37,068 nucleotides of DNA. Source: a virus. A model generated the notes under the pieces. That model was not told the DNA's origin, ran no database searches, and worked only from the letters and a program-made list of their open reading frames with translations. Shown in pieces: positions 4,001 through 22,189 of the stretch (positions are counted from its first letter, which is position 1; each line of letters opens with the position of its first letter). The DNA is taken from the IMG/VR virus record IMGVR_UViG_3300026094_001113, positions 1 through 37,068 of that record. One strand, 5' to 3'. The translations under genes were made by a program, and so were the position numbers.

Positions 4001-4788
4001 TAGTACTCTAAGTGGTCTATTCCTATCCTTTTTCGAAAATCTTCTGTAAATTTTCCATCAATTCTTAAAGAAAATCCTTGCTTTTCTGAATGATACCCGC
4101 CATGCCAATCTTGATCATTAAAGAAACATGCATGAGATTCTACAAAATAAAAGTTTTCTTTTTTATCGTCAGGGCCATTACAAATATAAAAACCTTTAGT
4201 TTTGTTAGGTCTTATATGAATGTACTCGTGCCTATGATCGGTATAATCTGTCTCCGGAGGAATGATATCTCTGTGTAGAGGATGTTTTACGTCATGTTCT
4301 GACATCATAAAAATTATTCTTCCTAGATACTCGAATACATTAGAACCATCAGGGTCTGCAAGATTTTTCAACCACTTTACAAGCCCAGGAAAATATTCTG
4401 CATCTTGTGTCCAAGGCTTTTCGTCAAATCTACTTTCCCATCCTCCGGCTTCAGATTTTATAAAAACAAATTTATAAGGATCATATGCTCCAAATGCTAA
4501 TTTTAAGTATCTAACAAATTCATCTCTATTAGACAATTCGCCTATTTCTTTTCCGTATTTTTTCGCAGGATGACTGTCATCTAACGCATCGTATTCTTCT
4601 ATTGCCATATAAAGAGGTTTAGGTAGAGGTTTATAATTGTTTATTCCTCCGGGCTTTACAATGTTGCCTTCTTTTTTGTGAGATTTAGTGATTCCATAAC
4701 ACATCTCATAATAGAGAGATTTGAATCTCTCTATGTCTAGATAGGGATCGAGATCGATATACGGTTTTCCTCCTATTCCTCTAATCAT
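3997..4788 (-). CDS. Putative Fe(II)/2OG oxygenase
   Basis: This 263-residue paralogue of the 2497-3315 gene carries H172-x-D174 (PLHRDIIPPE), distal H229 (FFNDQDWHGG) and R242 (SLRIDGKF) for 2OG, a complete active-site set. The C-terminus ends RKRIGIDHLEYY, close to its paralogue. Its N-terminal half differs except for a shared YLKLAFGAYDPY-like stretch. It is the last gene of a three-gene operon (kinase-like, AspH-like, this one), starts at ATG 4788 inside the upstream gene (8-base overlap) and has a fair ribosome site (AAAGGA). The substrate could be a sugar, peptide or small molecule; the sequence does not say. Confidence 0.72.
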   Translation of the reverse strand: MIRGIGGKPYIDLDPYLDIERFKSLYYEMCYGITKSHKKEGNIVKPGGINNYKPLPKPLYMAIEEYDALDDSHPAKKYGKEIGELSNRDEFVRYLKLAFGAYDPYKFVFIKSEAGGWESRFDEKPWTQDAEYFPGLVKWLKNLADPDGSNVFEYLGRIIFMMSEHDVKHPLHRDIIPPETDYTDHRHEYIHIRPNKTKGFYICNGPDDKKENFYFVESHACFFNDQDWHGGYHSEKQGFSLRIDGKFTEDFRKRIGIDHLEYY

Positions 4789-5476
4789 ATTTTTTCCTTT
4801 CTATTTTTACTTTTAAATTTAATAATTCAGCCATTTTTTTTATTCTTTCGATGGCATCTGCACTTATCTCAAAATATAATGTATCGCTATCTACTAAATC
4901 AAAAAAACCAATCTCTCCCGATTTGCAATACTGATTTATTAACGGTGATATTTTCCTATCTATAAGATATCTTAAATTGTAGGGAGGATCGATAAATTTT
5001 AAGTCAACTTTATCATAATTCTTGTTTTCATTTCTATCTAGTCTTAGCCTTATTACTAGCTGTATTCTAGGTGTAGGACCAAAATTTACAGCAGTATGCA
5101 TTTTTGATCCGTCCATGTAGTATAAAAAACCGTCATCATATAAATTATGCATTATATTTTCTTCAAGGTTGATAAGGTAAGAGTACTCATTAGTCGTAAT
5201 ATTAATGTGTAATCTATCATCAGCGTCACTGTGCGCCCTATAACATTTTTGTGAATCCAGTTTCATCAGTCTGGCTTCGCCTATAGGATAAGGAATACTG
5301 TGTAACAGACTATCAAAAGCAGTATCTTTCCATTCCTCACAGATTACATAAGGATCATAAAGCCAGTGGCCTGTTGCCTGATTTAGATTACATCTATTTC
5401 TATCGTCCCATTTAACACTTTCTAAAAGTTTTTTAAGAGGTTCGAGATCAAACTTATATTCTGTTTTTTTAAGCAT
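4781..5476 (-). CDS. Putative aspartyl/asparaginyl beta-hydroxylase-like 2OG oxygenase
   Basis: This 231-residue protein fits the Asp/Asn hydroxylase pattern: H82-x-D84 followed by RLH (AHSDADDRLHINI), then H127 (SKMHTAVNFGP) and R137 (PRIQLVIRL). The last 90 residues are an extra domain of unknown role with no cysteine or metal motif. AspH relatives hydroxylate protein Asp/Asn or, in bacteria, small molecules, so the true substrate is open. It sits between the kinase-like gene (8-base overlap) and another 2OG oxygenase (8-base overlap), so the three are co-translated. I recall this gene and the kinase-like one together in other marine T4-like phages. Confidence 0.72.
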   Translation of the reverse strand: MLKKTEYKFDLEPLKKLLESVKWDDRNRCNLNQATGHWLYDPYVICEEWKDTAFDSLLHSIPYPIGEARLMKLDSQKCYRAHSDADDRLHINITTNEYSYLINLEENIMHNLYDDGFLYYMDGSKMHTAVNFGPTPRIQLVIRLRLDRNENKNYDKVDLKFIDPPYNLRYLIDRKISPLINQYCKSGEIGFFDLVDSDTLYFEISADAIERIKKMAELLNLKVKIERKKYD

Positions 5477-6158
5477 AAATCTTTTTCGCTTCTTCTATGA
5501 AATCATCGGGATAATTTGACTTAAAACTATCTAGAGCCATTATCTGTAATTTATTTAAAGAAATTTCTGTATCCCACCAAATTTTCTCATTTATAAATTG
5601 TTTTTCTAACTTTTCCTGTCTATTCTTACTGATATGCGTCCTAAAGTCTTCAAACTTTACTTTCGATTCGTCAACATCATAACAAAAAAAATAATTGATA
5701 CTTTTTAAACATCCGTCGACTAAAAAATAACTGCTAGGATGAAGACTTATTTTATAAAATCCTAAATTTTTATGGGCTTCTAGTATGCGTAGTGTTTGTT
5801 CGCGCCAATCGCTAATTACTTTGTCATAATTTACATTGAGATCGTAATGTTTTTGCCAAAAATCTACTCCGTCAATACGAAGATATATTTTTTTATTCTT
5901 GTCGTCTATATCTAAAACTTCAGGAACTAGATTAGGAAAACGATTTGTCATTTTTGTCAAAAACTTTACTTCGCGATTCCATTTGTCGTTCATTAAAGAT
6001 ATGTCAACAACCTCGTTTTTTCCTTGATGATATTCTGTATCATTATGAAACCATTTCACAAAGGTTTTTTGGTCTTGAGATATTAAACTAGTATAGACTA
6101 GATTATTCCTAACTTTGCCGTGCTCCGGAGTGAAGTTATAGTAATATTTAAAGCGCAT
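5469..6158 (-). CDS. Kinase-like fold protein, unknown substrate
   Basis: I place the start at ATG 6158, giving 229 residues, because it lies 6 bases after a perfect late box. A TTG at 6164 would add only two residues. The layout recalls small phosphotransferases of the protein/aminoglycoside-kinase fold: an N-lobe with a Lys in KTFVKWFHND, a helix NREVKFLTKM, a hinge-like IYLRIDGVDFW, then SLHPSSYFLVDG in place of the catalytic loop and INYFFCYD where the metal-binding motif would be. Several canonical residues are not obvious, so it may be a degenerate kinase or a binding protein. From memory, close relatives occur in marine T4-like phages. Confidence 0.5.
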   Translation of the reverse strand: MRFKYYYNFTPEHGKVRNNLVYTSLISQDQKTFVKWFHNDTEYHQGKNEVVDISLMNDKWNREVKFLTKMTNRFPNLVPEVLDIDDKNKKIYLRIDGVDFWQKHYDLNVNYDKVISDWREQTLRILEAHKNLGFYKISLHPSSYFLVDGCLKSINYFFCYDVDESKVKFEDFRTHISKNRQEKLEKQFINEKIWWDTEISLNKLQIMALDSFKSNYPDDFIEEAKKIYA

Positions 6159-6164
6159 ATTCAA

Positions 6165-6204: not shown

Positions 6205-7473
6205 ATGAAAAATAATTCCTGCACCTTCTGTGTGCATCCATTTACTGGCTTGGCTACTAGAGAAGACGGTGCTATTAAAATCTGCTGTAGAAGCCAGCCT
6301 GTGGGGTGGATACAGCAACAAAGTCTCGAAGAAGTTTGGAACTCTGACAAAATGAAAGAAGTTCGTAGACAGGTTCTAAGCGGTGAGAGACCTGATGTCT
6401 GTATCCCGTGTTTCGACCTAGAAGATCAAGGCGTAGAGAGCTTAAGACAGCGTCACATACGCGGAATTATACCCGAGGCTAGAGTTAACCTTTACCCTGA
6501 TGCTTTAGACAAGCTAGAAGACGATTATTCAATGCCATTTGAATTTCCTACTATGGAGATCAAGATCAACAATCTCTGTAACCTAAAATGTCGCATGTGT
6601 AATCCTCTTGATTCTACTTCGTGGACTGACTGGAAAGAAGTTGAACCGTTTTACGAGAAGGAAAACAACTATCTTGTGCCAACAGTTAAAAAACTTACAT
6701 CAAGACCTGGTCAATATATCGGACCATTTGACGATACTGCTCATTGGTGGAGTGATTTTGAAAAATTGCTGCCGCATTTTAGAAGAGTAGAGTTTGCAGG
6801 AGGCGAGCCTTTAATGGATCCTAACCATTACAAAATTCTAGACATGCTCAAACCCTACGCTGACAACATTGAAATTAAATATGCTACAAACGGTACTAAA
6901 CTAGGCATATCGAAAGGCAAGACTATATTTGACTATTGGCCGCATTTCAAGTCTGTCGCTGTTAATGTAAGTATCGACGGCATACATGATGTATATGAAT
7001 ATATAAGGGGCAACGGAGAGTTCGCGCTTGTAGAAGAAAATATTAGAAAAATGAAGGCAATTCCTAATATATCTAGAATAGTAGGTGCATTTACAGTTCA
7101 ATCTAACAACATAATGCAGATAGACAAAGTAATTGAATATTTTCTTAAAGAGATGGGTATTATTTTCTACAGTCATAGAGTAAACTATCCTAGAGCATTG
7201 TCAGCACAGGTTTTACCTAGGAAATTAAAACTCAAGGTTATAGAAAAACTTGAATTAATGAAGCATATAGTAGAAGACTACGAAATTGTTAAGAATAGTT
7301 CCGTTATTCGAGAGGTAACTCTACAACAAATTCAAGACAATATTAACTTTTTACAAGCCGAAGACTTAAGCGAACATTGGCAAGATTGCGTAGAGTTTAA
7401 CCGCAAACTGGACGTAACTAGAAGTCAAGGACCTTTAGAAAAAGTAATACCAGATTTCAAAGATTTTTTGTAA
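6205..7473 (+). CDS. Twitch-type radical SAM enzyme (R1)
   Basis: This 422-residue enzyme has the SAM-cleaving cluster motif C125-x3-C129-x2-C132 (NLCNLKCRMCNP) and GGEP at 199-202. The N-terminal 75 residues form an auxiliary cysteine module: C6, C9, the pair C27-C28 and C66-x2-C69, with VWNSDKMKEVRRQVLSGE between them. This reads like half of a SPASM domain placed before the core instead of after it. Relatives are usually named 'twitch domain-containing radical SAM protein'. The founding twitch enzyme, BtrN, dehydrogenates an aminocyclitol; the substrate here is unknown. It heads an operon with a PP-loop ATPase and a second rSAM. ATG 6205 appears leaderless. Confidence 0.85.
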   Translation: MKNNSCTFCVHPFTGLATREDGAIKICCRSQPVGWIQQQSLEEVWNSDKMKEVRRQVLSGERPDVCIPCFDLEDQGVESLRQRHIRGIIPEARVNLYPDALDKLEDDYSMPFEFPTMEIKINNLCNLKCRMCNPLDSTSWTDWKEVEPFYEKENNYLVPTVKKLTSRPGQYIGPFDDTAHWWSDFEKLLPHFRRVEFAGGEPLMDPNHYKILDMLKPYADNIEIKYATNGTKLGISKGKTIFDYWPHFKSVAVNVSIDGIHDVYEYIRGNGEFALVEENIRKMKAIPNISRIVGAFTVQSNNIMQIDKVIEYFLKEMGIIFYSHRVNYPRALSAQVLPRKLKLKVIEKLELMKHIVEDYEIVKNSSVIREVTLQQIQDNINFLQAEDLSEHWQDCVEFNRKLDVTRSQGPLEKVIPDFKDFL

Positions 7474-7475
7474 TT

Positions 7476-8273
7476 ATGAATTATAAAAGCAAAATACAAC
7501 CAGAGTACGCCTACACAAATTTAGTAGAACACGATACAATTTTTTTCCCTTTAGATAATAAATGGAAACGTGTTGCCATTAGTGTTAGTGGTGGTGCTGA
7601 TAGCGCTCTTCTTGCCTATTTGTTAAGTTATTATATTTGGAAAAATAATTTAGATATCGAAATACATTTTATATCTAATATACGTATGTGGGAAACACGA
7701 CCGTGGCAAAGATATGATAGTATAAACGTATATAATTACATTAAAACACTTTTTCCTTCGTTGACATATCATAGACATGAAAATTTTATACCGCCAGAGC
7801 TAGAAACAGCTAACATCGGAAAAATAATACCTCATTTTACTGGGGAGCAAAAAGGCGGGGATTCGATCTGTACTTTTTCTTATGCTACTTATATCTGTAA
7901 AAGAGAAAATATAAGTGCTTGGTTCGCAGCACTAACAAAAAATCCTGATCAAGATTTTTCCGGAACCCCAGACGATAGAAACAGCAAAGACTTAGATAAT
8001 GTAAAAAATCCTATAGAAATTTTCAATGGTATAATTCTAGCTCATCCTTTTTGTAACACAAGCAAGGATTGGGTTATAAAACAATATAAGGATCTAGATA
8101 TATTAGACTTATTAAATGCCACTAGAAGTTGTGAAGGAGATAAAAATTCTGCTCCAGAAATATTTGGTGAATTAAATTTTTATACATACAATCAGTTCGA
8201 CTATGTACCAACTTGTGGCAAATGTTTCTGGTGTCAAGAAAGAAAATGGGCATTAAGCCAAAATAACTTATGA
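7476..8273 (+). CDS. PP-loop ATPase, QueC/ExsB-like
   Basis: This 265-residue ATP pyrophosphatase carries the PP-loop SGGADS at 38-43, which binds ATP to adenylate a carboxylate or amide, and a C-terminal zinc-type set C219, C247, C250, C253 (CGKCFWCQERKWAL). The last part is very close to QueC, which makes 7-cyano-7-deazaguanine. In QueC, however, the first cysteine lies about ten residues before the CxxC; here the gap is 28. No other queuosine genes are present (FolE, QueD and a QueE-like rSAM are missing). It therefore probably performs ATP-driven nitrogen or sulphur insertion on another substrate, in step with the rSAM enzymes that flank it. It is 2 bases from the upstream stop and overlaps the downstream start by 4. 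Confidence 0.8.
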   Translation: MNYKSKIQPEYAYTNLVEHDTIFFPLDNKWKRVAISVSGGADSALLAYLLSYYIWKNNLDIEIHFISNIRMWETRPWQRYDSINVYNYIKTLFPSLTYHRHENFIPPELETANIGKIIPHFTGEQKGGDSICTFSYATYICKRENISAWFAALTKNPDQDFSGTPDDRNSKDLDNVKNPIEIFNGIILAHPFCNTSKDWVIKQYKDLDILDLLNATRSCEGDKNSAPEIFGELNFYTYNQFDYVPTCGKCFWCQERKWALSQNNL

Positions 8274-9157
8274 AAAAAATTACAAGTAGGTGGCCCCATC
8301 AAGATTCTTTAAAAATAGAATGGAACCTGGGCAAGAGGTGTAATCTCGATTGTGCCTATTGTCCTGCGGAAATACATGATAACCATTCTCCTCATACTGC
8401 TATAGATATTCTGAAATCCACAGTAGATAAACTTTCTCAGATTGACAAGCCTTTGAGAATAAGTTTTACTGGGGGCGAGCCCTGTGTGCATCCAAAAATA
8501 TCAGACCTGTTTGATTACACAAGACAGCATGCTTCGTGGATTAATGTAACCACAAATGGAACACGTAAAGCGGAATGGTATGCCAGCCAACCTCTAGATC
8601 ATATTGTGTTTTCTCTACACTTTGAAACTGCCGACTGGGAACGACATTTGATAAACATCGTAGAAACACATGAATTAGTAGATATTCCAATACAGGTAAA
8701 TGTCATGGCACATCACGAGCATATGGAAAATGTTAGGTTTGCCGCTATGCATCTACAAAATCACAAAATAAAGCATGTTATACGCCGCATTCGTTGGACA
8801 GAATCGCATGATTGGTTTGATGATATGCGCTACGACCAAAGAGATCTAGACTGGATCTTAGAAAACGAAGCAACTGCTTTACCTAATTGCGAAGTAGATG
8901 GAGAATATTCCATACATGCTAACGACATAATAAAGAAACACGATAATCAATTTCAAGGTTGGAAATGTAATATTGGGTTAGAAAGTCTGATGATTAATTG
9001 GGACGGTGAGGTTTATAGAGCAACCTGTAGAGTAGGAGGCAGTTTAGGGAATATATACGAAGGCAATTTTGAGAATCCCAGTGATTCGATCACTTGTACT
9101 CGTAATTGGTGTACATGTGCAGCTGATATTCCTATCACTAAAATAAAACTAATCTAA
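8270..9157 (+). CDS. Radical SAM enzyme with C-terminal Cx4CxC cluster (R2)
   Basis: This 295-residue enzyme has its cluster at C24-x3-C28-x2-C31 (KRCNLDCAYCPAE) and GGEP at 68-71. The C-terminal third holds C233 (GWKCNIGLE), C253 (RATCRVGG) and the ending C276-x4-C281-x-C283, apparently a SPASM-like auxiliary site. The same Cys layout recurs in the genes at 10232, 11298, 12259 and 33497. The phrase FSLHFETAD in the barrel is also shared in form with them. It is coupled to the PP-loop gene by an ATGA overlap and meets a convergent rSAM gene tail to tail with a 9-base overlap. Its GC content is higher than in the middle of the island. Substrate is unknown. Confidence 0.85.
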   Translation: MKKITSRWPHQDSLKIEWNLGKRCNLDCAYCPAEIHDNHSPHTAIDILKSTVDKLSQIDKPLRISFTGGEPCVHPKISDLFDYTRQHASWINVTTNGTRKAEWYASQPLDHIVFSLHFETADWERHLINIVETHELVDIPIQVNVMAHHEHMENVRFAAMHLQNHKIKHVIRRIRWTESHDWFDDMRYDQRDLDWILENEATALPNCEVDGEYSIHANDIIKKHDNQFQGWKCNIGLESLMINWDGEVYRATCRVGGSLGNIYEGNFENPSDSITCTRNWCTCAADIPITKIKLI

Positions 9158-10192
9158 TCCACAAAGTAAATTACATAATAAAAGTTTTTGTTTGATCCAA
9201 TAACGATGCCATATTTTTAAATATTCTGGGTTGTTTAATATACTTTTTATAGATACAATATCTAAACTAAAAAGATTTTCTTTTTCTAAGTCCTTTATTA
9301 CAGCGGCAATCTCCTTTTTAATTCTAGGCAACCTTTTGTTAAGCGCATGCTCACCTATTATAGGCATTTGATATCTGTTGGTGGCAATGTAGCAACAAGG
9401 AAATATACACTTGTAAGCATCTATATAAATGCTGTTGTTTGTTAATGATTCGCAACAATTTGTCATATTTTTTTCTAAAGTTTCGACGTCTTGTAAAAGG
9501 TTTTCGAATTCTGCTTCGGATCCAATATCTACATTTTCAATACAGGATTCAAGATTATATAATGTTGAGCCGTCTTTACCTAATACTGAAAACTGACTCG
9601 ATGTTTTAAATCTTTCTGTAACTATTTTATCAACAGAATTAAACCCTATGTCTAGTAGAAATTTTTCTAGGTCTTTGTATTGATGTTGATTATGTTTAAA
9701 TTGAATAAAATGAGCCTCTGCATTTCCGCCTGCTTTTATAAATGTCTTTGCATTATCGATTATTTTATTCCAATTTGTACCTATTCGGTATAGACTATGG
9801 GTATCTGAGAAACCGTCAATTCCAAAATATACAGTGTGATTTTTTGGCAAGCGTTTGGGTAAATTTTTCCAAAACGTGGTTGTTCGTAGACTTGCATTAG
9901 TATGGATATCTACTTTTATCATAGGATTAATTTTTTTGACATAGGATATTATATCTAAAAAATCTTTTACCATTAACGGATCGCCTAGACCGCCACAAAA
10001 ATTAAGATGTTTAATCTGCATCAATACTTCTTCAGATAGAATCTTTTTGAAATCATCTAGATTCCATTCTACGTTTTTGAAAAGATTGTTAGGAATACCG
10101 CTATGATAATTTCTGCTACACATAGGACATTTCGCCTGGCATCGATTTGTTATTTCTACTTCTATACTTTTTAAGTTATTGAAACCAAACAT
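9149..10192 (-). CDS. Radical SAM/SPASM-like enzyme with altered GGEP motif (R3)
   Basis: This 347-residue enzyme has C18-x3-C22-x2-C25 (NRCQAKCPMCSRNYH). Where most rSAM enzymes have GGEP (contacting the SAM amino group), this one has CGGLGDP at 66-72. The C-terminal part has NCCESL, then IYIDAYKCIFPCCYIA, and ends with C340-x3-C344 (LLLCNLLCGLD), a SPASM-like set. It is a clear paralogue of the gene at 14740-15819: both contain DTHSLYRIGT and an AGG-containing helix at the same place. Monocistronic on the minus strand, it has a TTAAATA box 6 bases before ATG 10192 and probably a leaderless mRNA. Confidence 0.85.
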   Translation of the reverse strand: MFGFNNLKSIEVEITNRCQAKCPMCSRNYHSGIPNNLFKNVEWNLDDFKKILSEEVLMQIKHLNFCGGLGDPLMVKDFLDIISYVKKINPMIKVDIHTNASLRTTTFWKNLPKRLPKNHTVYFGIDGFSDTHSLYRIGTNWNKIIDNAKTFIKAGGNAEAHFIQFKHNQHQYKDLEKFLLDIGFNSVDKIVTERFKTSSQFSVLGKDGSTLYNLESCIENVDIGSEAEFENLLQDVETLEKNMTNCCESLTNNSIYIDAYKCIFPCCYIATNRYQMPIIGEHALNKRLPRIKKEIAAVIKDLEKENLFSLDIVSIKSILNNPEYLKIWHRYWIKQKLLLCNLLCGLD

Positions 10193-10198
10193 TAATAC

Positions 10199-10206
10199 TA
10201 TTTAAC
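10199..10206 (-). promoter_or_regulatory. Late-type -10 box (GTTAAATA), minus strand
   Basis: Six of eight matches to TATAAATA, followed by GTATTA and ATG 10192. The 6-base spacing is the same as at 6165-6172. Confidence 0.45.
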
Positions 10207-10214
10207 TTTGATTA

Positions 10215-10222
10215 TTTAAATA
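10215..10222 (+). promoter_or_regulatory. Late-type -10 box (TTTAAATA), plus strand
   Basis: Seven of eight matches to TATAAATA, with 9 bases to ATG 10232 and no ribosome site between. It forms a divergent pair with 10199-10206 in a 39-base spacer. Confidence 0.5.
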
Positions 10223-10231
10223 CTTCTATAT

Positions 10232-11314
10232 ATGATTAATCCTGTTGCTATAAATTCTAAAAACATAGAGCCTATGATGATTACATGGGACACAGGTAAA
10301 AAATGTAACTATGATTGTACATATTGCGAGGCATCACGTCATGATAATCATAGTTCTTTCCATTCTCTAGAAGAATATCTCGATACTTTTAATTTTATAC
10401 GAGAATATGTCAACATATATGATAGATACAAAATCAATCCTGCTGATCATACCAATATTAATTTTACCGGTGGCGAGCCTACATTAAATCCTCATTTCTG
10501 GGAACTGGCAGACAAAATAAAACAAGACCATAATAATTTTAGATTAAGCCTTACAACGAACGGTGCTTGGAATAAAAAATACACTGAAAAAATTAAAGAA
10601 CACTTTTCTGGCGTTACAGTAAGTTATCATGCTGAATCAAACAATAAATTAAAAGAATTAGTTATCGACAATATTTTAGCATTGAAAGATACTGATATAT
10701 GGTTACAGGTCAATGTCATGCTTCATGCTGATTATTTTAACGAATGTGTCGAAGTATATGAACACTTAAAAAAGAATGGTATTAAGGTCAATCCTCGTCC
10801 GATCGGCGACGGTAATGAGAGTAGGAAAGGGTGGTTTGTTGACGAAGATGGCGTGTTTAGGAAAACTGCCCATGACTATACCGAAGAACAAACGGATTGG
10901 TTTTTTCGAGAAACAGGGTTAGAAAAAAATATCGAATGTTCGTCAGGAGACGAATTTGGAAGAGGTTGCTGCGGCGGAAGGTGTATTGAAGGGTTAGTGG
11001 ACGATGTATGGCAGCCTGTATCTATTGTTGATACACATTTTAAAGATTGGTATTGCTCGGTTAATTGGTATTTTTTACACATTGAACAACACACTGGTTC
11101 AGTATATCATCATCAGACCTGTCAAGCAAAGTTTGACGGTGAAAGAGGTTCTATAGGATCTCTATCAAAGACACAAAAAATGTTAAATGATGTAAAAGAA
11201 AATATAAAAAAAGATAAAATTATATCTTGTCCTAATATTAGATGCGGTTGCGGAATGTGTGTTCCAAAAGCCGAAGATAAAAATATTTTTCATAAACTTA
11301 AATCTTCCATTTAG
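10232..11314 (+). CDS. Radical SAM enzyme with C-terminal Cx4CxCx2C cluster (R4)
   Basis: This 360-residue enzyme has C25-x3-C29-x2-C32 (KKCNYDCTYCEAS) and GGEP at 80-83. The barrel contains VSYHAESNNK, shared with the gene at 12259 (VSYHAESTPK). A middle insert near residues 230-250 is Cys-rich (GRGCCGGRC). The C-terminus carries WYCSVNWYFLHI, HHQTCQ and the ending C333-x4-C338-x-C340-x2-C343 (RCGCGMCVPK). This is the same plan as R2 with an added final Cys, so extra iron-sulphur clusters are likely. Substrate is unknown. It is a single-gene plus-strand block that overlaps the convergent rSAM gene by 17 bases. Confidence 0.85.
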   Translation: MINPVAINSKNIEPMMITWDTGKKCNYDCTYCEASRHDNHSSFHSLEEYLDTFNFIREYVNIYDRYKINPADHTNINFTGGEPTLNPHFWELADKIKQDHNNFRLSLTTNGAWNKKYTEKIKEHFSGVTVSYHAESNNKLKELVIDNILALKDTDIWLQVNVMLHADYFNECVEVYEHLKKNGIKVNPRPIGDGNESRKGWFVDEDGVFRKTAHDYTEEQTDWFFRETGLEKNIECSSGDEFGRGCCGGRCIEGLVDDVWQPVSIVDTHFKDWYCSVNWYFLHIEQHTGSVYHHQTCQAKFDGERGSIGSLSKTQKMLNDVKENIKKDKIISCPNIRCGCGMCVPKAEDKNIFHKLKSSI

Positions 11315-12266
11315 TGACAGCAATTTCTGACTTACAGCTACAAATATCTTTTGTACAAGTTATAGGCTTAAATTTTGGATTAAAATTATCTTTAAAATTT
11401 TCATCGTAAAGATTAAATGGTGCAGGATATCCAAAAATTTTATCTCTACAATTTGCTGTAATTTCGCCGTTTTGGAAAATTTTAACTTGCTCTAACCCTA
11501 TATTACATTTAAATCCTTTAAAATAATTTAGATTATTAATAGAAATCCACTGATCTCCTTCAGATTCTTTTACTGTGTCGTCCTCTAAAGTTATAAAGAG
11601 CTTAGTAATCTCAACTGGGCCTACTTTATTATACCATTCTTCGTTAGGATATCTTCTTATTCTTTCCTCTAGGTAGACCTTTTGATCATCGTTATAAAAA
11701 GTTTTTCCGTTAAAATGGACTACTTTTGCTAAAATAGGCCAATCGTACTTAGAAGTTTTTAAATCTTCAATTATTTGTTTACATTTGTCAAAACTTCTAT
11801 GATCCATTAACACATTCGTAACAAAAAATACATCATGTTCATATAGAATATCACCTACTTTTTTTAAATGTTCAATGTTAGCAAATTCATGATGTATACT
11901 AATTTCAATTTGATCAAAATATCTACAATATTCTTTCCACCATCTACGACTTTTTGATCCATTTGTTGATATGCGTATTTCACAATTAAATTTTTTTCTA
12001 AAAAAGTCGCAAACTTCAGGAAGATCTCTCCATAAAGTAGGCTCACCTCCTATAAGGTAAAGTATAGGCCGTGTTCTTCCATTTTCTCGATACTTAGACA
12101 AAAGATGTCCTAAATTCCGTTTAACTATTTCTTTGTCGGGCCAAGGATAATCCCCTTCATTGCTGCCTGGGAAACAATACGAACATTTATGATTGCATAG
12201 ATTTCCTAACATGTATTCTATTCTTATGCGTTTGTCTGAAAAATTATTTTTTATAGATTTAATCAT
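11298..12266 (-). CDS. Radical SAM enzyme with C-terminal Cx4CxC cluster (R5)
   Basis: This 322-residue enzyme has C24-x3-C28-x2-C31 (NLCNHKCSYCFPG), GGEP at 73-76 (LIGGEPTLW) and ISIHHEFAN in the barrel. The tail has GFKCNIGLE, TANCRDK and C304-x4-C309-x-C311, which groups it with R2 and R13. The last words (AVTKWKI) also resemble the end of R2 (PITKIKLI). It is the final gene of a four-rSAM operon in which all genes overlap, and starts at ATG 12266, 8 bases inside the upstream gene. Its 3' end overlaps R4 by 17 bases. Substrate is unknown. Confidence 0.85.
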   Translation of the reverse strand: MIKSIKNNFSDKRIRIEYMLGNLCNHKCSYCFPGSNEGDYPWPDKEIVKRNLGHLLSKYRENGRTRPILYLIGGEPTLWRDLPEVCDFFRKKFNCEIRISTNGSKSRRWWKEYCRYFDQIEISIHHEFANIEHLKKVGDILYEHDVFFVTNVLMDHRSFDKCKQIIEDLKTSKYDWPILAKVVHFNGKTFYNDDQKVYLEERIRRYPNEEWYNKVGPVEITKLFITLEDDTVKESEGDQWISINNLNYFKGFKCNIGLEQVKIFQNGEITANCRDKIFGYPAPFNLYDENFKDNFNPKFKPITCTKDICSCKSEIAVTKWKI

Positions 12267-13353
12267 TTCTATATTTTTCCATTATTTTTTTGAAAACATC
12301 CTCATCTTTTGACTTAGGAGTACACATTCCACACCAGCAACTGTTTTTTTGGCATACGATAAAATCTTGTTTATTTTTTATTGCGTGTCTTGCCTTTTTA
12401 AGTATTTCTTCTGTATCTGTTAAAAAACCTAATGGTGCTACTTTGCTGCGTAAATTTTGTCTGCAATCTTTATTTGTAAAAACCTGTCCAGTGTTCTGCC
12501 TAATGTATAAGAAAAATCTGTTAACGCTGCAATTCCATCCTTTAAATTTATTTTCGACTAAAGTTTTAGTAGAATCATAATTTTCATCTATGTAAAAGGG
12601 AACACGTCCACAACATTCTCTAACTTTACTACTGAGATCTATTCCGTTTTTCACAAAATAAGAAAACTTATCTAGAATTTTTGTTTTTGGACAGTTATCG
12701 CATGTTCCATATAACCAATTTTTTTGTTCTTCTGTGTAATTAAATCTAAAATCACTCCATTTAGAATCAATTTGTCTAGGAATTACTTTTATTTTACGCT
12801 CCCTGCACCATTTGACCATACTTACGCAATCTTCCCAGTAATGAGGGTGCATCATACAGCTCACTTGGAAATTTTTATTACGTTTTTTAAGGAACAAGAT
12901 ATTGTTTTTAACTAATGTTTTTTGTTTAGGCGTAGATTCGGCGTGATAACTTACTGTTATATGATCTAGATTAGATATAATTTTTTTCCAATGGTTTTTT
13001 CCTACTACTGCATTGGTTATTGTGCTTATTGCTACTGAAAAATCATATTTTTTTCTTTTATCCTTAATATAACCTAGGATATCTACTATATCTGGATGAA
13101 ATAGGCTCTCTCCGCCGTAAACATTAAGATTGACGTGTTTCATTACTTGGTTACTATTATCAGGGTAAGTATACAAGTACAGGCTTACGTATTGAAAAAT
13201 AAAATCAACGGTTTGAAGACACTCATGTAAAGAAGGATGCGGTTGGGTGTTATCATGGCCATCACCGCAATATGAACAATCTAAATTGCATTTCAAAGTG
13301 CTTTCCCATTCTACATGAAAAAACTGTTTTTCAGCTGGTTCGAGTGTTTTCAT
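12259..13353 (-). CDS. Radical SAM enzyme with C-terminal Cx4CxCx2C cluster (R6)
   Basis: This 364-residue paralogue of R4 has C22-x3-C26-x2-C29 (LKCNLDCSYCGDG). The SAM-binding motif is GGES (80-83) instead of GGEP. The insert near residues 210-255 has CDNCPKTK and ECCGRV, and the tail has GWNCSVNRFFLYI, NKDCRQN and C334-x4-C339-x-C341-x2-C344 (CWCGMCTPKS). The Cys set, the barrel phrase and the final PKxxDxxxF(H/K)K are shared with R4, so both probably act on related substrates. It starts at ATG 13353 in an ATGA overlap with the twitch-type gene upstream and overlaps the next gene by 8 bases. Confidence 0.85.
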   Translation of the reverse strand: MKTLEPAEKQFFHVEWESTLKCNLDCSYCGDGHDNTQPHPSLHECLQTVDFIFQYVSLYLYTYPDNSNQVMKHVNLNVYGGESLFHPDIVDILGYIKDKRKKYDFSVAISTITNAVVGKNHWKKIISNLDHITVSYHAESTPKQKTLVKNNILFLKKRNKNFQVSCMMHPHYWEDCVSMVKWCRERKIKVIPRQIDSKWSDFRFNYTEEQKNWLYGTCDNCPKTKILDKFSYFVKNGIDLSSKVRECCGRVPFYIDENYDSTKTLVENKFKGWNCSVNRFFLYIRQNTGQVFTNKDCRQNLRSKVAPLGFLTDTEEILKKARHAIKNKQDFIVCQKNSCWCGMCTPKSKDEDVFKKIMEKYRND

Positions 13354-14747
13354 AACAAATGTGCTAGTTCAGGAAATATCTCTTTTGCCGAAACGCCTCT
13401 AATTAAATCTAACTCGGTGATGTATTCTTTAAAGCCCGGTAATTCGTTTGATTTGTCTTCAGCATCCATGTGATTCATTACGGCTTCCCAGCGTCTCCAT
13501 CCATAGGGATTGTGTTTCCAAAAATCATCATCCTGTCTGTAATTATGGCAAAGCCAGTCTTTAAATTCTCTGTATCTTTCTCTTACTTCTTGCTTGTCTT
13601 CTTTAGGAAGACACTGAATACTTAAAAATGTAGGTATGTATAATAGATGCATGTTAACTAAACCGCCCCCCATTTGCACGCCGCCGGGTACTTGTGCGAC
13701 ATTTAGTTTTTTAAACCCAGATTCTACCTTCCACTTCATAAAATCTGGCAGGTGCTTTACGTTTAAAATTTGTATAGCAGTAGCAAGGCTGGTTGTAATA
13801 TTATCCGGAGTATTATCTAACATATGCAAATTCTTTTCTACCGTTTTCCAATCTGTAGGATAACGGATATACTCATCTCTCTCATAGCAAGCATCCATGG
13901 ATATAGCAAATTTTACTTTCTTAAAACGCGACCACATGTCGATTAAATCTTCGTCTACTAATAAGCCATTAGAATTATATCTTAAGAGAATTTGATCTTG
14001 ATAGCCTTGTCGAAGAATTTCTTCAATAAACTGCTTATGTTCCTTTATCATTAAGGGCTCGCCGCCAGCAAAATATACTTGTTTCAAATTAGGAATTTGT
14101 GCGTTCATTTCTTCCCAAAAAGAAGATTTTTCGTGCCATTTATTATCAAAGGAGGCAGCGTCAAACTGCATTTGACTTTTTACATTTGAATCTTTTAGTT
14201 TGTTTATTAATTTTGAATAATCTTGTAGCCACCTAGACGAGTCGTGAGGGGAACACATTACACATTTTATGTTGCAGGTGTGACCTAATCTTAAATCGAG
14301 ATATTTTAATTTTTCAGGAACTGTACCATCTTCTTCTGTTTGCCTAATTAGCTCAGGAATATCAACATCATCGTAATGCCAAGTTATTGTTTCCCAAACT
14401 CTTTTTGATACTACTCCTTTGGATTCTTCTTGAAAACATTTTGTGCAACTTGCTGGCTTTTCTCCTTTTAACATGGTTTTTCTGACGTTTTTCATATAAT
14501 TGTTATTCCATGCATGCATAGGAGTTGTTTTTCCAAAATTTGCAGAACTTCCGTCTCCGTTTTTTACTAATCCAACTTCGTGGTCTTTTCCTGCTCCACT
14601 GGCATTTGCCGAGCAACAAAGTCGCATATCTCCATTAGGTCTTGTAGCAAAATGTATCCATGGCAAAACACAAAATGTTGGAGAATTAGATGCTTGTTCA
14701 ATTTTTTGTTGCAAAGCTAATAAGCTAGTATTTTTTAAATCATTCAT
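13350..14747 (-). CDS. Twitch-type radical SAM enzyme (R7)
   Basis: I choose ATG 14747 (465 residues), which overlaps the upstream stop by 8 bases. A longer frame back to 14822 would run 83 bases into the upstream gene and add a Leu/Ile-rich, unrelated leader. The N-terminal module has C26, C44-C45 (MRLCCSANAS), HAWNNNYMKNVRKTMLKGE and C101-x2-C104 (SCTKCFQEE). The core has C158-x3-C162-x2-C165 (HTCNIKCVMCSPH) and GGEP at 228-231 (YFAGGEPLM). It is the same architecture as R1 and R9, with a longer loop between the cysteine pairs. Third-from-last gene of the four-rSAM operon. Substrate is unknown. Confidence 0.85.
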   Translation of the reverse strand: MNDLKNTSLLALQQKIEQASNSPTFCVLPWIHFATRPNGDMRLCCSANASGAGKDHEVGLVKNGDGSSANFGKTTPMHAWNNNYMKNVRKTMLKGEKPASCTKCFQEESKGVVSKRVWETITWHYDDVDIPELIRQTEEDGTVPEKLKYLDLRLGHTCNIKCVMCSPHDSSRWLQDYSKLINKLKDSNVKSQMQFDAASFDNKWHEKSSFWEEMNAQIPNLKQVYFAGGEPLMIKEHKQFIEEILRQGYQDQILLRYNSNGLLVDEDLIDMWSRFKKVKFAISMDACYERDEYIRYPTDWKTVEKNLHMLDNTPDNITTSLATAIQILNVKHLPDFMKWKVESGFKKLNVAQVPGGVQMGGGLVNMHLLYIPTFLSIQCLPKEDKQEVRERYREFKDWLCHNYRQDDDFWKHNPYGWRRWEAVMNHMDAEDKSNELPGFKEYITELDLIRGVSAKEIFPELAHLL

Positions 14748-15819
14748 TCGAAAATCCAATAGTTTGAGCAAATTGATCTTTAGGTTTAGATAAATTATTA
14801 TTTTTTCCGCAAGTTCGAGCACATGTGAGTAGTTTTTTTTCTCCCCAGTAACTTTCCCAAGCTGTTTGCCACTCGTTAGAATTTATTATTGATTTTAACG
14901 TTCTTTGTACAGCGTTTGTATTTCCTAGAGTTTTTCTTAAATCCTTATATTGTCTTAAAACATCTTTCCTATATTCTCTAACAATATCGTCTTTAGGTGA
15001 ATAGACATATGGAGCACTTGCTAAGAAACAACAAGGAAAAACATTCTTTTGTGCATCTATATATATTTCCCTAGTTTTCTTTACATAGCAATCTATTTCG
15101 GCATTTTGAAAATAACTTTTATAATTATCTACTACCTCTTTCGGAATAAAATCTGTGTTTGAGTTAGAAGGTTGTTGTAAACTATACAATGTGTTACCGT
15201 TTTTATCGTAGACATCAAATTCAGGTTCGCCAATAAATCTTGAAGAGTTTTTTTCTGTGAATAAATTAAATCCTAGTTTGCTTGCTCTAGTTTTGGCTTC
15301 ATCAACTTGATGCTCGTTATATTTAAATTTTATAAAGCACCATTCGGCAATTCCCCCTGCTTCTATAAATGCTTTTGCGTTTTCTATGATCTTTTCAAAA
15401 GAAGTTCCTATTCTATATAAACTATGAGTATCTTCTAGACCATCTATAGCAAATATAACTTTATGTGTTTGCGGTAATGCAAGAGCTAGTTCTCCCCACC
15501 ATTTTTTTGTTCTTGCTGATCCGTTAGTGTGAATTCTTATGTTCAATTTAGAATTAACATCTACAGAATATTTTATCATTTCTATTAGATTATCATTGAT
15601 AATAGGATCACCAAAATTACCACAAAAATAAAAACCATTTATTTGTTTAAGTGTTTCGTTATCCATTATTTTTTTAAAATCATTAAGAGTCCAGTCTGTT
15701 AGTTTCAGTAAAGGATTCTTAACTCCGCCATGATAATTCCTAATACACATAGGGCAAGAAGCCTGGCACTTACTTGTTATTTCTAAATGAATATCTTGCA
15801 AGTCTTTAAATTCAAACAT
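14740..15819 (-). CDS. Radical SAM/SPASM-like enzyme with altered GGEP motif (R8)
   Basis: This 359-residue paralogue of R3 has C18-x3-C22-x2-C25 (SKCQASCPMCIRNYH) and CGNFGDP (66-72) where GGEP is expected. It shares DTHSLYRIGT and the phrase EIYIDAQKNVFPCCFLA, and near the end has TCARTCGKNNN, the likely last ligands of a SPASM-type site. It is the first gene of the four-rSAM minus-strand operon (R8, R7, R6, R5). Upstream of ATG 15819 I see neither a clear late box at leaderless distance nor a good ribosome site. The 101-base spacer to R9 is the longest in the island. Confidence 0.85.
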   Translation of the reverse strand: MFEFKDLQDIHLEITSKCQASCPMCIRNYHGGVKNPLLKLTDWTLNDFKKIMDNETLKQINGFYFCGNFGDPIINDNLIEMIKYSVDVNSKLNIRIHTNGSARTKKWWGELALALPQTHKVIFAIDGLEDTHSLYRIGTSFEKIIENAKAFIEAGGIAEWCFIKFKYNEHQVDEAKTRASKLGFNLFTEKNSSRFIGEPEFDVYDKNGNTLYSLQQPSNSNTDFIPKEVVDNYKSYFQNAEIDCYVKKTREIYIDAQKNVFPCCFLASAPYVYSPKDDIVREYRKDVLRQYKDLRKTLGNTNAVQRTLKSIINSNEWQTAWESYWGEKKLLTCARTCGKNNNLSKPKDQFAQTIGFSNE

Positions 15820-15920: not shown

Positions 15921-17087
15921 ATGAAAAACTTATGGTGTCCTTTAGCATTTAATGGTATAATGTGCAAAACTACAGGAGAGTATAAAACCTGTTGTGCTGC
16001 GTCTAATATAGCCAAGGTGGATGGAAAAAATTTACATAGAAATAATTCTACTTTAGAAGAAGCTTTTAACAGTGATTTTTTTCAAAAGATAAGACATAAT
16101 CTCAATAACGGAATAAAAGATGATAATTGTTCTAGATGTTGGAAAGAAGAATCGCTCGGACTAGAAAGTTATAGACAAAAACAGATAAAAAAATTTACAA
16201 ATCAAGCATATTCAAAAGAATTAAAATATGTAGATATTGGATTAGGTAATCAGTGCAATCTTAAATGTAGAATTTGTAGAGTAGATGATAGTTCTACATG
16301 GATTAAAGAGTCATTCGACCTAGATAATTCTACCGAAATAAATCTACGCGAATTTATTAAACAAAACACACACAGAACAAATAAAAGTTTTATAGAAAAT
16401 ATCCGAAACAAGTTAATTAATGAAATTAACTTTTTTTCTTTTTTCGGAGGAGAGCCTTTTTTAATAAAGGATACCTGGAATATTATTGATAGTGCCTTAG
16501 AAAAAAATGTTTCGCAAAATATCGATTTGATGTTTAATAGTAACGGAACTATCTGGAATGAAAAAATAAAACACAAATTGTCTCGTTTTAAGTCAGTTGA
16601 TTTACATTTAAGCATAGACGGCATAAAAAATAAATTTAACTATACCAGGCATCCGGCAAAATGGGACGTATTTTATAAAAACCTGTTAGACGTTTTAGAT
16701 TGGCAATCTAAAAGTGATAATGTAATAGTAACCCTTGATTATTCTGTTTCTAACTATAATGTGTATTACATTCCTGAATTTATAGAATTTTGTAAAAGTA
16801 ATAGAGTCAAATATTACTTTAATTTGGTTACAGATCCGGAATATTTAAGTATATCTAATATTCCAAACAATATAAAACAAAAAATAGAAAAGCATCTAAA
16901 AGACAATGTTAATAAAAAGGATTTAAATAATAACGAATTTAAAAAAATTTATGGTTATTTAGCTATGAATAGTGACTTAGAACAATGGTATAATTTTATT
17001 AAGGATTATCAAAAAAGAGATTTATACAGGAATGAGTCTTTTGAAGGAACCTTTAATGAATATTTTAAAATAATTAGCACCATCTAG
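15921..17087 (+). CDS. Twitch-type radical SAM enzyme (R9)
   Basis: This 388-residue enzyme has the same plan as R1. The N-terminal module has C6 (LWCPLAF), C24-C25 (KTCCAAS), EAFNSDFFQKIRHNLNNG and C70-x2-C73; the core has C112-x3-C116-x2-C119 (NQCNLKCRICRVD), FGGEPF (GGEP 176-179) and LHLSIDGI in the barrel. The coding sequence is very AT-rich and Lys/Asn-rich, unlike R1, so the two probably diverged in different genomes or long ago. It is a single-gene block on the plus strand whose last 14 bases overlap the convergent GNAT-like gene. Substrate is unknown. Confidence 0.85.
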   Translation: MKNLWCPLAFNGIMCKTTGEYKTCCAASNIAKVDGKNLHRNNSTLEEAFNSDFFQKIRHNLNNGIKDDNCSRCWKEESLGLESYRQKQIKKFTNQAYSKELKYVDIGLGNQCNLKCRICRVDDSSTWIKESFDLDNSTEINLREFIKQNTHRTNKSFIENIRNKLINEINFFSFFGGEPFLIKDTWNIIDSALEKNVSQNIDLMFNSNGTIWNEKIKHKLSRFKSVDLHLSIDGIKNKFNYTRHPAKWDVFYKNLLDVLDWQSKSDNVIVTLDYSVSNYNVYYIPEFIEFCKSNRVKYYFNLVTDPEYLSISNIPNNIKQKIEKHLKDNVNKKDLNNNEFKKIYGYLAMNSDLEQWYNFIKDYQKRDLYRNESFEGTFNEYFKIISTI

Positions 17088-18905: not shown

Positions 18906-20201
18906 CTAATTAGATAATTCTTTTTTGAAAGTATCTATACTGTGTAAGACAGCAAGATTATGATCTAGCACATCAGACATTTCGCTATAAATTTTTTCTT
19001 TTTCTGTCATTGTTAAACTATCTATATAATCTATCAATTCTAAAATTTTGATTAATCTTTTTTCATGATCTTGTTCTTGATCATATGATTCGTCCCACCA
19101 TTGATCAAAGGTTTTAAATCCTAGTTTTTTTAAATGCAATAAACTAAAAGGTGCTCCTACTAGAACAAACGGATTTCTACATTTAATTGCTATTAATATT
19201 TTTTCGCTAAAGGTACCGAAAGGTTGGGCAAATGTGCTTTCACCGACTAATACACAAAAACTTTTTTTATACAGATCTTTTAGAGAATTTTCAATTACAT
19301 AACCGTCATACCCTTTAGGAAATTTCCATTTATCGTTTTTTCCGGTTAACTTGGTTTTAGCCTGAGGTTTTATATCTAAGGTATAATAATTTTCATTTAG
19401 TAATTCAGACCCATATTTTATTTTATGTTGTAATTTTTTTTGTTTTTTTTTAATAGAAAACCATAAATTATCTTGTAAAATATCTAAAGGACTATCGTAA
19501 TGCCACGACATCTTGACATTATTTTTTGTTGCCAAATAACAAGCAAAAAAGTGTCGGTAAGGCTCGTATCTCCAAAACGGTGCAAGAATATTAAATTCTA
19601 GAGAATTATTATTATTTTCTATCTTATAAAATTTTTCAATAAGATTATATTGTGCTAGTAGACAAATATTATAATAAACTATTTCAAATGAATATTTCTG
19701 CTTTAAAACTTGCGGTGCATTATAATATAAGTATTTTACAGATACATTTTTAATATTATTTTTTCTTACAAAATTTTCGATGGAATCAAGTGAAGCCGAA
19801 TATACTGTATTTTCATCATTAAAGCTATCTAAATATTCTGCATATACTTCGCTTATGAAAGAATTATTGGTATCATTAGGCAAAGGTTCTCGGTTTAAAT
19901 GTGTAGTTTTATTATAAGAAAAGAAATCTATTTCATATAAAAATATATCTAGGCCTTGATTATCTATATATTCTGCATTGTTTAATATGAAATTGTCTAG
20001 CTGTACCACATAACCATAAGACCTACAAAAAATAAAAGGCTTTTTTTGATTATGCAAGTCTAATTGATATAAGTGCCATTTTACAAATTCGTTTACATAG
20101 GAATTGTCAATATCAAAATTATGATTCCCGTTAATATCAGTTATACATAATTTTCCAAAAACATTGTGGAATAAAACAAAAGTATCTATTAAACTAGGCA
20201 T
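18906..20201 (-). CDS. Putative glycosyltransferase, paralogue 1 of 3
   Basis: This 431-residue protein has no firm family name. The C-terminal half has the pattern LAPFWRYEPYRHFFA, then FAQPFGTFSEKILIAIK, PFVLVGAP, and GFKTFDQWWDESYD. A basic RxxPxRH-like motif followed by F(S/T)EK and PFILV is typical of phage GT-B-type sugar transferases (fucosyltransferase/exostosin-like), so I infer transfer of a sugar, with low certainty on donor. The genes at 20202 and 22186 share the order of these motifs. A 104-base stretch (19015-19118) is identical to the next paralogue although the proteins otherwise differ strongly. ATG 20201 directly follows the upstream TAG. The coding sequence is extremely AT-rich. 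Confidence 0.55.
   Translation of the reverse strand: MPSLIDTFVLFHNVFGKLCITDINGNHNFDIDNSYVNEFVKWHLYQLDLHNQKKPFIFCRSYGYVVQLDNFILNNAEYIDNQGLDIFLYEIDFFSYNKTTHLNREPLPNDTNNSFISEVYAEYLDSFNDENTVYSASLDSIENFVRKNNIKNVSVKYLYYNAPQVLKQKYSFEIVYYNICLLAQYNLIEKFYKIENNNNSLEFNILAPFWRYEPYRHFFACYLATKNNVKMSWHYDSPLDILQDNLWFSIKKKQKKLQHKIKYGSELLNENYYTLDIKPQAKTKLTGKNDKWKFPKGYDGYVIENSLKDLYKKSFCVLVGESTFAQPFGTFSEKILIAIKCRNPFVLVGAPFSLLHLKKLGFKTFDQWWDESYDQEQDHEKRLIKILELIDYIDSLTMTEKEKIYSEMSDVLDHNLAVLHSIDTFKKELSN
19015..19118. repeat. 104-bp perfect direct repeat, copy 1
   Basis: This stretch is identical base for base to 20308-20411 by eye. Both lie in the same frame near the 3' end of paralogous genes and encode the segment from TFDQWWDESYD through to YIDS. 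Sequence on both sides diverges at once. Confidence 0.95.
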
Positions 20202-21527
20202 CTATATAAATCTTAAATTTTTCTTTTTAACATCTTTAAGTTGATTAAAATTATGCTGTAATACGTTATTCATCTCTTTATATATCATTTGTAAATCATT
20301 AACAGAAAAACTATCTATATAATCTATCAATTCTAAAATTTTGATTAATCTTTTTTCATGATCTTGTTCTTGATCATATGATTCGTCCCACCATTGATCA
20401 AAGGTTTTAAACCCCAATTTCTTAAGGTACTCTAAACTCTTAGGTGTTGATACCATTATAAATGGCCTAAGGCAATACATAGTGTTAACTACTTTTTCGC
20501 TGAAAGTTGCAAAAGGTTTAAAAAATGTTGTTTCGTTTATAATATGACAAAAAGTTTTACTATACTCTTCATAAGGTAAAGGATATTGGCTTCCGCATTC
20601 AATTCTACTCAAATGTTTTTCTTTTTCTAATCTTAAAGGAAAATTTTCATTAATTAAATGAGTGCCTTTGTTTACTGAGTCAAAATATTTCGGATTCTGG
20701 ACTTTCCAATAATCAAAATTTATAGGAGATGTATTATTAAGATAATTTATATCTAATTTATTACTTACAGTTTTATGCCAATCACGTTTATTATTATTCC
20801 AGGTAACAATAGAACTTTTTTGCACAGTGTGCGCCGCAATTATATGTCTATAAGGTTCGTACCTTAAATTTAAACAAAGAAATTTATTTTGTATAGATTG
20901 CGGACTAAAGCTAATTCCTACAGGCTTTTGTAAATAATTCCTATATGTAGTTATAAGAGTATTCATAGATTCTATATGAACTTCTGGATATAAATGCTGT
21001 AGATATCGAGATGTTTCATATTCACATGTAATAACTGTTACATTGTTTAATAAATTATTTTGTACAAATTTTCGTATACTTTCGAACTCATACGAATATA
21101 TTAAGTTTAAATCAGTAACCTCAGGAAAAATATAATCTAGGGGAGACAGATCTTCTAACGTAGGATCAATTTCCATTTCTCTTTTTGGTAGAGTATCTAC
21201 CAAAATAACTTCCCATAAATATATCTCAAGACCGTTTTTATTAAGAGACTCTATGATATCAGAAGTATACACAATAGATTCTAAAGGTTTTATTGTACCT
21301 AGACCAGTACATACAATATGGGATTTTTTCAATTCTACAAAATGAGAATCTAAACAAAAATCATCATAAAAATTGTAAAAGTCATAGGTTTTTGGTCTAT
21401 TTTGTCGATTTATTATAGAATCATCTTTCTGTATAACCCTAGAAGTATCATAATCTCTATTCGGATAAAGATTTTCATAAACGCTATTAAAGAACAAACT
21501 TTTAAAAGATAGCTCAACTCTATTCAT
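20202..21527 (-). CDS. Putative glycosyltransferase, paralogue 2 of 3
   Basis: I choose ATG 21527 (441 residues), two bases after the upstream TGA. A TTG at 21533 would add two residues. Motif order is as in its neighbours: FLCLNLRYEPYRHIIAA, FFKPFATFSEKVVNTM, PFIMVSTPKSLEYL and GFKTFDQWWDESYD. The N-terminal region has a paired-strand pattern (SIRKFVQNNLLNNVTVIT) found in all three paralogues, perhaps a Rossmann-like domain. It is co-translated with a 2OG oxygenase upstream and paralogue 1 downstream (TAGATG junction). The assignment as glycosyltransferase rests on motif resemblance only. Confidence 0.55.
   Translation of the reverse strand: MNRVELSFKSLFFNSVYENLYPNRDYDTSRVIQKDDSIINRQNRPKTYDFYNFYDDFCLDSHFVELKKSHIVCTGLGTIKPLESIVYTSDIIESLNKNGLEIYLWEVILVDTLPKREMEIDPTLEDLSPLDYIFPEVTDLNLIYSYEFESIRKFVQNNLLNNVTVITCEYETSRYLQHLYPEVHIESMNTLITTYRNYLQKPVGISFSPQSIQNKFLCLNLRYEPYRHIIAAHTVQKSSIVTWNNNKRDWHKTVSNKLDINYLNNTSPINFDYWKVQNPKYFDSVNKGTHLINENFPLRLEKEKHLSRIECGSQYPLPYEEYSKTFCHIINETTFFKPFATFSEKVVNTMYCLRPFIMVSTPKSLEYLKKLGFKTFDQWWDESYDQEQDHEKRLIKILELIDYIDSFSVNDLQMIYKEMNNVLQHNFNQLKDVKKKNLRFI
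20308..20411. repeat. 104-bp perfect direct repeat, copy 2
   Basis: Identical to 19015-19118. See that entry; copies are 1,293 bases apart on the same strand within paralogous genes. Confidence 0.95.
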
Positions 21528-21529
21528 TA

Positions 21530-22189
21530 TCAAATAATAGAACCATCATCTAATTTTAGTAACACAGAATTTTCGCCTTGTTCCCAAACATATTCATAAT
21601 TAAAATCTTTATAAGGTTTCAGCCCTCTATAAATTAAAAGTCTCTTCTGTGTATAACTGAGATTTGTACCGCCGTGCAACGCAGTGGGACTAGACCATTG
21701 CCATGCTTCTCCGTGCGGTTGCATATATAAACATGTGTCTTCGATCCAAAAAATTTGGCCGTATTCAGGGTCACCTAAATGTACAGTAACTCTAATTAAT
21801 TCTCCTAATTCTTGTAACTTTTCTTCTCTGCCGTCTCTATCTCTATGTGGAACGGCGTTTTGTCCTGGGTTTAAAGTGTTTATCCAACATTGTGTACAGA
21901 TTGTTCCAAGAAGTTTGTCTAAAAAATATACAATATCGGTATCAAAATGAACACCTGGTTCGAATGGGGAAGGTCCTACTATAATCGGATCAGAATAACC
22001 TGACTTTACAAGAGGTATAATCCAGTCGTAATCTGGCAAAATATCAACTTCTGGATCATTTTTTTCGATTTTATTTCTAAATTTTTCTATTTCGTGCTCT
22101 TCAATGGCCTCGTTTTCATAAGGTTTAATTTGGTCAAGTATATTATATAGATCAAAATTTTCTGCAATATTTCCTATTCTTTTTGTCAT
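21530..22189 (-). CDS. Putative Fe(II)/2OG oxygenase
   Basis: This 219-residue protein has H115-x-D117 (AVPHRDRDGREEK), distal H172 (TALHGGTNLS) and R183 (QKRLLIYRG), the full 2OG oxygenase set. An N-terminal 60-residue helical stretch precedes the barrel. The region CWINTLNPGQ just before the first His matches the 'NPG' turn seen in the smaller family members at 26686 and 31516 (LNPGDIV, MEPGMIL). It lies between two glycosyltransferase-like genes, sharing 4-base overlap with the one upstream, so it may oxidise the sugar or acceptor they handle (inference). Confidence 0.75.
   Translation of the reverse strand: MTKRIGNIAENFDLYNILDQIKPYENEAIEEHEIEKFRNKIEKNDPEVDILPDYDWIIPLVKSGYSDPIIVGPSPFEPGVHFDTDIVYFLDKLLGTICTQCWINTLNPGQNAVPHRDRDGREEKLQELGELIRVTVHLGDPEYGQIFWIEDTCLYMQPHGEAWQWSSPTALHGGTNLSYTQKRLLIYRGLKPYKDFNYEYVWEQGENSVLLKLDDGSII

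Follow-up and report, generated by a model that had tools for sequence, protein, structure and literature searches.

What does a virus do with 13 radical S-adenosylmethionine (SAM) genes in 37 kb? Radical SAM enzymes catalyse difficult chemistry, and the fragment analysed here (the window: positions 1–37,068 of IMG/VR record IMGVR_UViG_3300026094_001113, from an uncultivated virus) encodes 13 proteins that match PF04055. Eight of them, clustered between positions 6205 and 15819, had been described in the initial annotation as one quartet of enzymes present twice. We reasoned that this reading could be examined through family trees, gene content in relatives, and cassette boundaries. The eight genes are probably an old core shared with Bdellovibrionia-type chromosomes, together with add-on cassettes, whose products cooperate on one modified molecule.

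Eight Radical SAM Genes in Four Motif Classes

Radical SAM membership was assigned from the CxxxCxxC core, a SAM-binding motif (GGEP-like), and the Pfam match. The eight listed open reading frames (ORFs) were all located, and the core is present in 8/8. Seven score above the curated PF04055 cut-off of 29.5 bits; the other, II2, is borderline (28.6–29.6 bits). T1 (6205–7473, plus strand) and T2 (13350–14822, minus strand) have an N-terminal SPASM/twitch-like domain. III1 (8270–9157, plus; CTRNWCTC) and III2 (11298–12266, minus; CTKDICSC) end in Cx4CxC, while III'1 (10232–11314, plus; CPNIRCGCGMC), with the full set of C-terminal SPASM cysteines, and III'2 (12259–13353, minus; CQKNSCWCGMC) end in Cx4CxCx2C. 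The CGxxGDP class comprises II1 (9149–10192, minus; CGGLGDP) and II2 (14740–15819, minus; CGNFGDP). Identity within pairs, judged by BLASTP, is 40% for II1/II2, 33% for III'1/III'2, 26% for III1/III2, and 24% for T1/T2. The annotated GTG start of T2 at 14822 is probably too early, as an ATG at 14747 gives a better fit to most relatives (459–473 aa).

Among about 100 related contigs, Cx4CxC is kept in 74/74 III1 and 60/69 III2 proteins, Cx4CxCx2C in 39/39 III'1 and 21/21 III'2 proteins, and CGxxGDP in 87/87 II proteins. The III, III', and II motifs are absent from all 893 neighbouring ORFs on these contigs that do not encode radical SAM proteins. This conservation, and the absence from neighbours, indicate that the motif classes are non-random, and the three motifs cleanly set the families apart in this sample. 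T1, T2, and a further enzyme, T3 (15921–17087, plus), all pass the NCBIfam model NF033640 (324, 387, and 294 bits; cut-off 170). The model describes a broad subfamily with no stated function, within which T1 and T2 belong to different ortholog groups.

The eight genes and four motif classes were thus borne out, as was the operon layout: II2, T2, III'2, and III2 overlap in a single run on the minus strand, and the other four genes are spread over three blocks (T1/III1, II1, and III'1). The list itself was incomplete. Its eight members stand, and the window's 13 also include T3 and R33 (33497–34489, minus), a III-related enzyme that partners T2 and II as it does in bacteria.

Family Trees and the Duplicated Quartet

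Across phages, T1, T2, III1, III2, III'1, III'2, and R33 resolve into ortholog groups of their own. Bacterial relatives group with T2, R33, and III', and those of T1 are separate from those of T2; the T1/T2 and R33/III' splits therefore predate the phage lineage. II1 and II2 fall within one phage clade, and the II enzyme adjoining R33 in other phages groups with bacterial II. Of the pairings expected if the two sets were copies, T1/T2 thus failed, whereas II1/II2 share a clade.

The view of the initial annotation was of a single block duplication, with each resulting quartet making its own version of one product. It would account for the two members of every family within 9.6 kb and for the common clade of II1 and II2, and approximately unbiased (AU) tests do not reject III1 and III2 (p = 0.195) or phage III'1 and III'2 (p = 0.315) as sisters. 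We nevertheless regard it as scarcely credible. The bacterial relatives of T1 are distinct from those of T2, the two sets differ in gene order and composition, close relatives lack the II1 insertion at the orthologous site, and entire members of the sets are absent from related phages with fewer cassettes. Furthermore, in phages and bacteria alike, T2 and II have as their conserved partner R33, which the proposed quartet left out. Among the contigs compared, none outside the window had two complete quartets as a fixed unit.

Co-occurrence and Cassette Junctions Define Modules

The usual layout in phage relatives is R33–II–T2–(III2)–(III'2) facing (III'1)–III1–T1, that is, two operons tail to tail. 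In the window, about 18 kb of other genes stand between R33 and II2, and this separation hid from the initial annotation that R33 belongs to the set. III1 is present in all 71 contigs that have both T1 and T2. III'2 never occurs without III'1 (37 of these contigs have neither, 17 have III'1 only, and 17 have both), and the presence of III'1 agrees with that of the II2-clade enzyme in 65/71. To compare changes, we used a tree of concatenated T1, T2, and III1; among seven independent comparisons that differ in III'1, the II2 clade changes in the same way in six and in the opposite way in none (sign test, p = 0.031). The first 13 loci were collected with III'1 as bait, which inflates the frequency of III'1, not its link to II2.

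Boundaries were defined against a reference relative, L009, which is 82–89% identical over most of the core. L009 lacks window positions 11361–13343 (III2 and III'2; junction at 11124/11129 in L009) and 9149–10266 (II1; junction at 9991/10033). The rare II1 is therefore a single-gene insertion, between III1 and III'1, and III2 plus III'2 constitute an exact two-gene unit. A QueC-family PP-loop ATPase gene (7476–8273, plus) lies between T1 and III1 in the window; in L009 it is missing from this site and present upstream of T1. The modules are {T1, III1}, {T2, R33, II}, {III'1, II2}, and {III2, III'2}, with II1 as a single insertion.

Two further genes accompany the core. F3 (28776–29366, minus), which is SAM-methyltransferase-like by sequence motif, is present in 89/94 loci, and F4 (34458–35144, minus), a putative glycosyltransferase-like protein with a DxD-like motif, is a frequent neighbour. 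The ATPase gene is also common in relatives and in one of them (L036) is fused to II2 as a single 624-residue ORF. Core genes are tightly packed: 96% of 539 neighbouring pairs overlap or lie within 20 bp, and gaps of at least 75 bp occur in eight. The ratio of nonsynonymous to synonymous substitution (dN/dS) is 0.05–0.11 for the six radical SAM genes shared with L009 (0.065 for T1). Such strong purifying selection indicates that these six genes are maintained.

A Bacterial Counterpart of the Core

The T alignment was scanned against 84,980 species genomes. T2-like genes at 41–46% identity were found in Bdellovibrionota and other metagenome-assembled genomes (MAGs), beside R33, II, F3, and F4, and T2 orthologs in Bdellovibrionia-class genomes are 46–49% identical. 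In a search across 143 genomes of this class, R33 was present in 15. T2 occurred in 13 genomes, all of them R33 carriers, and in 0/128 others; F3 was found in 13/15 carriers compared to 16/128 others. Fisher tests gave p values of about 1e-16 (T2 with R33) and 6e-9 (F3 with R33), which, we stress, are raw values that ignore relatedness. F4 was found in 11 of the 16 R33 genomes searched for it. In four of eight bacterial genomes, the QueC-like ATPase is encoded inside the cluster or no more than 3 kb away from it, and nowhere else.

Several bacterial clusters are on contigs of 200–940 kb amid ordinary chromosomal genes. The bacterial argument is built on these long contigs and on the class-wide search, as four loci (L108–L111) may be viral or plasmid contigs inside MAGs. 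A 3.5-kb contig labelled "Thermoplasmata archaeon" (L102) was left out because it is very likely a misbinned phage fragment; its II2, T2, III'1, and III1 are up to 84% identical to those of the window.

Taken with the invariable presence of III1, the dependence of III'2 on III'1, and the co-switching of III'1 and II2, the restriction of T2 to R33 carriers shows the families travelling together and supports the part of the initial annotation that had them cooperating.

The QueC-like ATPase and the Fold of III'1

Structure prediction for the ATPase gave a model (predicted local distance difference test score, pLDDT, 88.5) whose closest fold is QueC, with Cap9 and QatC near (Z = 12.5–14.5). A profile search against solved structures returned weak TtuA matches only. 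SGGxDS is present in 57/57 of the QueC-like ATPases, as part of a protein that also has a four-cysteine site with the spacing C(x)27CxxCxxC. The canonical preQ0-synthase motifs (set taken from PMC13329287), YxQxHxxE, VPxRN, YPDC, and C(x)8CxxCxxC, were each found in 0/57. Since SGGxDS and the four cysteines are kept and none of the canonical motifs is, the protein is probably a QueC-family ligase with a specificity other than that of preQ0 synthase. It resembles QueC, QatC, and Cap9 in fold, SGGxDS, and four-cysteine site but differs in lacking the canonical motifs, in the longer cysteine spacing, and in its partners, which are radical SAM enzymes rather than QueDE, QatABD, or a CD-NTase.

The predicted model of III'1 (pLDDT 87.8) matches BlsE, SkfB, CteB, and anSME about equally, with Z scores nearly tied. 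The likeness extends to the overall radical SAM and auxiliary-cluster fold, at 15–18% identity; the island has neither the operon partners of those enzymes nor a precursor gene.

A Proposed Modular Pathway and Its Rivals

We propose that the genes of the island make up a single modular biosynthetic pathway directed at a common product, most likely a decoration of a surface glycan or of small-molecule type, and we put the chances of this reading at about even. A core of T2, R33, and II, which adjoin in phages and in Bdellovibrionia-type chromosomes, often with F3 and F4, is extended in the phages by a T1–III1 arm and usually by the QueC-family ATPase. Each radical SAM enzyme would convert SAM to a 5'-deoxyadenosyl radical and carry out one step (oxidation, epimerisation, or bond formation) on the common substrate, with the SPASM/twitch clusters as electron acceptors or relays. 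The role of the QueC-like enzyme might be to adenylate a carboxylate and join it to an amine, F3 might methylate, and F4 might transfer the finished group. Optional cassettes would alter the final structure and so generate variants among related phages. The most likely product would be a sugar or small-molecule decoration of the host surface glycan, made during infection and hiding or altering the receptor.

A single pathway is supported by joint presence and joint switching, by cassette junctions placed exactly at gene ends, by gene overlaps and purifying selection, by the II2–QueC-like fusion and the QueC fold, and by the same families adjoining in bacteria. The glycan or small-molecule product is the weakest step. 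It is favoured because the window also encodes nucleotide-sugar epimerases, a DegT aminotransferase, and a UDP-sugar dehydrogenase, because a glycosyltransferase 2 gene adjoins two of the bacterial clusters, and because a published report links the hypervariable region of pelagimyophages to lipopolysaccharide (LPS) genes (PMC7029224). Other observations weigh against the proposal. Several bacterial R33–T2–II loci sit amid housekeeping, not glycan, genes; none of the enzymes matches an equivalog of known chemistry; the near tie among its structural matches means that a sugar and a peptide substrate are not told apart by the III'1 fold; and the roles suggested for F4 (transferase) and F3 (methyltransferase) are drawn from motifs. 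F4 has no Pfam or PDB match, and profile searches with F3 and F4 against solved structures gave none.

Modification of a protein or peptide is the role of most known SPASM/twitch enzymes, and the target here could be a phage tail or structural protein, a host protein, or a ribosomally synthesized and post-translationally modified peptide (RiPP) encoded elsewhere. SPASM domains are present, the fold of III'1 is nearly as close to SkfB, CteB, and anSME as to BlsE, 2-oxoglutarate (2OG) hydroxylase-like genes lie nearby, a tail-fibre-like ORF with Mtd_N is found at the window edge, and some QueC-family enzymes carry out conjugation to protein termini (PMC11996544, PMC13279940). We consider this explanation unlikely on balance, as the bacterial loci have the core without phage structural genes and the operons themselves, with only 8/539 core gaps reaching 75 bp, leave no room for a RiPP precursor peptide gene. 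Less probable again is that the hypervariable region simply gathers radical SAM genes of unrelated roles. The island is clearly cassette-like, T3 and the radical SAM genes starting at 18010, 23519, and 25385 have no fixed partners, and radical SAM cassettes are described as additions to the pelagimyophage hypervariable region in PMC7029224; independent roles fit poorly, however, with the universal T1/T2/III1 association, the dependence of III'2 on III'1, the joint gain and loss of II2 and III'1, and the recurrence of the core genes side by side on bacterial chromosomes.

A modified-nucleobase pathway, leading for instance to a 7-deazapurine-like base in DNA or RNA and using the QueC-like enzyme for ligation, would draw on the QueC fold, the zinc-type cysteines, and a QueE-like PHROG among the III1 matches. 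We judge it very unlikely, given that the canonical QueC motifs are absent from 57/57 proteins and that the TGT family was found in 0/9 phage records and PTPS in two, although these records may be fragments. A role in defence was rejected, the PADLOC matches being to generic viperin and QueC only. The best score of a window enzyme against the viperin model NF038283 is 58.9 bits (III'1), below the curated cut-off of 180.

Returning to the single modular pathway, its boldest form would require at least four radical SAM steps (T1, III1, T2, and R33), with swappable extras, and would have a core common to marine T4-like phages and Bdellovibrionia-type bacteria, and as its product a previously undescribed class of molecule that remodels infected cells; we offer this version only tentatively and hold it to be somewhat doubtful. 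A single pathway behind the conserved core, if confirmed, would be unusually elaborate for a phage and would have a cellular counterpart open to study in bacteria. A defined minimal set (T2, R33, and II, with F3 and F4) then replaces a list of unexplained auxiliary genes.

Phage Relatives and Other Genes of the Window

No near DNA match to the window was found among 50,697 phage records. Related viral-collection records extend up to 170 kb, and a gp23-type capsid gene in three of the eight examined suggests that the group of relatives, as distinct from the 37-kb window, is T4-like. They encode as many as 25 radical SAM genes (in a 77-kb record), with 21 in a 170-kb record. Such genes have been reported before: a T4-like marine genome has 12 radical SAM genes (PMC5332604), and pelagimyophages add radical SAM cassettes to an LPS-gene-rich hypervariable region (PMC7029224). 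The island resembles these published cassettes in its T4-like relatives, its many radical SAM genes, and its cassette-like gains amid surface-sugar genes. In the sections of the two reports available, such genes are counted or mentioned, and the T2–R33–II core, the co-varying cassettes, and the bacterial orthologs are not described.

Protein relatives in cultured phages are distant only (Vibrio, Campylobacter, and Pelagibacter phage Mosig). The 255-kb genome of the cultured Vibrio phage K566 has three clustered genes annotated as radical SAM and, close by, a gene for the lipid A acyltransferase PagP, and this phage is a possible distant analogue accessible to laboratory work.

T3 has a long branch and lies outside the conserved set. 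The radical SAM gene at 23519–25339 is of the cobalamin-binding type (B12-binding plus radical SAM), apart from the families discussed. Three paralogs (18906–20201, 20202–21533, and 22186–23532) share the segment GFKTFD(Q/K)WWDESYD and are probably transferases; they belong to no Pfam family. F4 occurs in extended forms of up to 848 aa in other loci, and in one (L055, 4221–7394) it is fused to a long run of degenerate F4-like repeats (1057 aa). Upstream of T1, F8 (4781–5476, minus) is a 2OG/Asp-Asn hydroxylase-like accessory present in 56 loci, and the adjacent F15 (5469–6164), which is kinase-like and matches no Pfam family, is found again near the island at 23 loci. The product of 29285–30394 shows a weak match to the arginine deiminase/amidinotransferase family and has relatives in other island loci.

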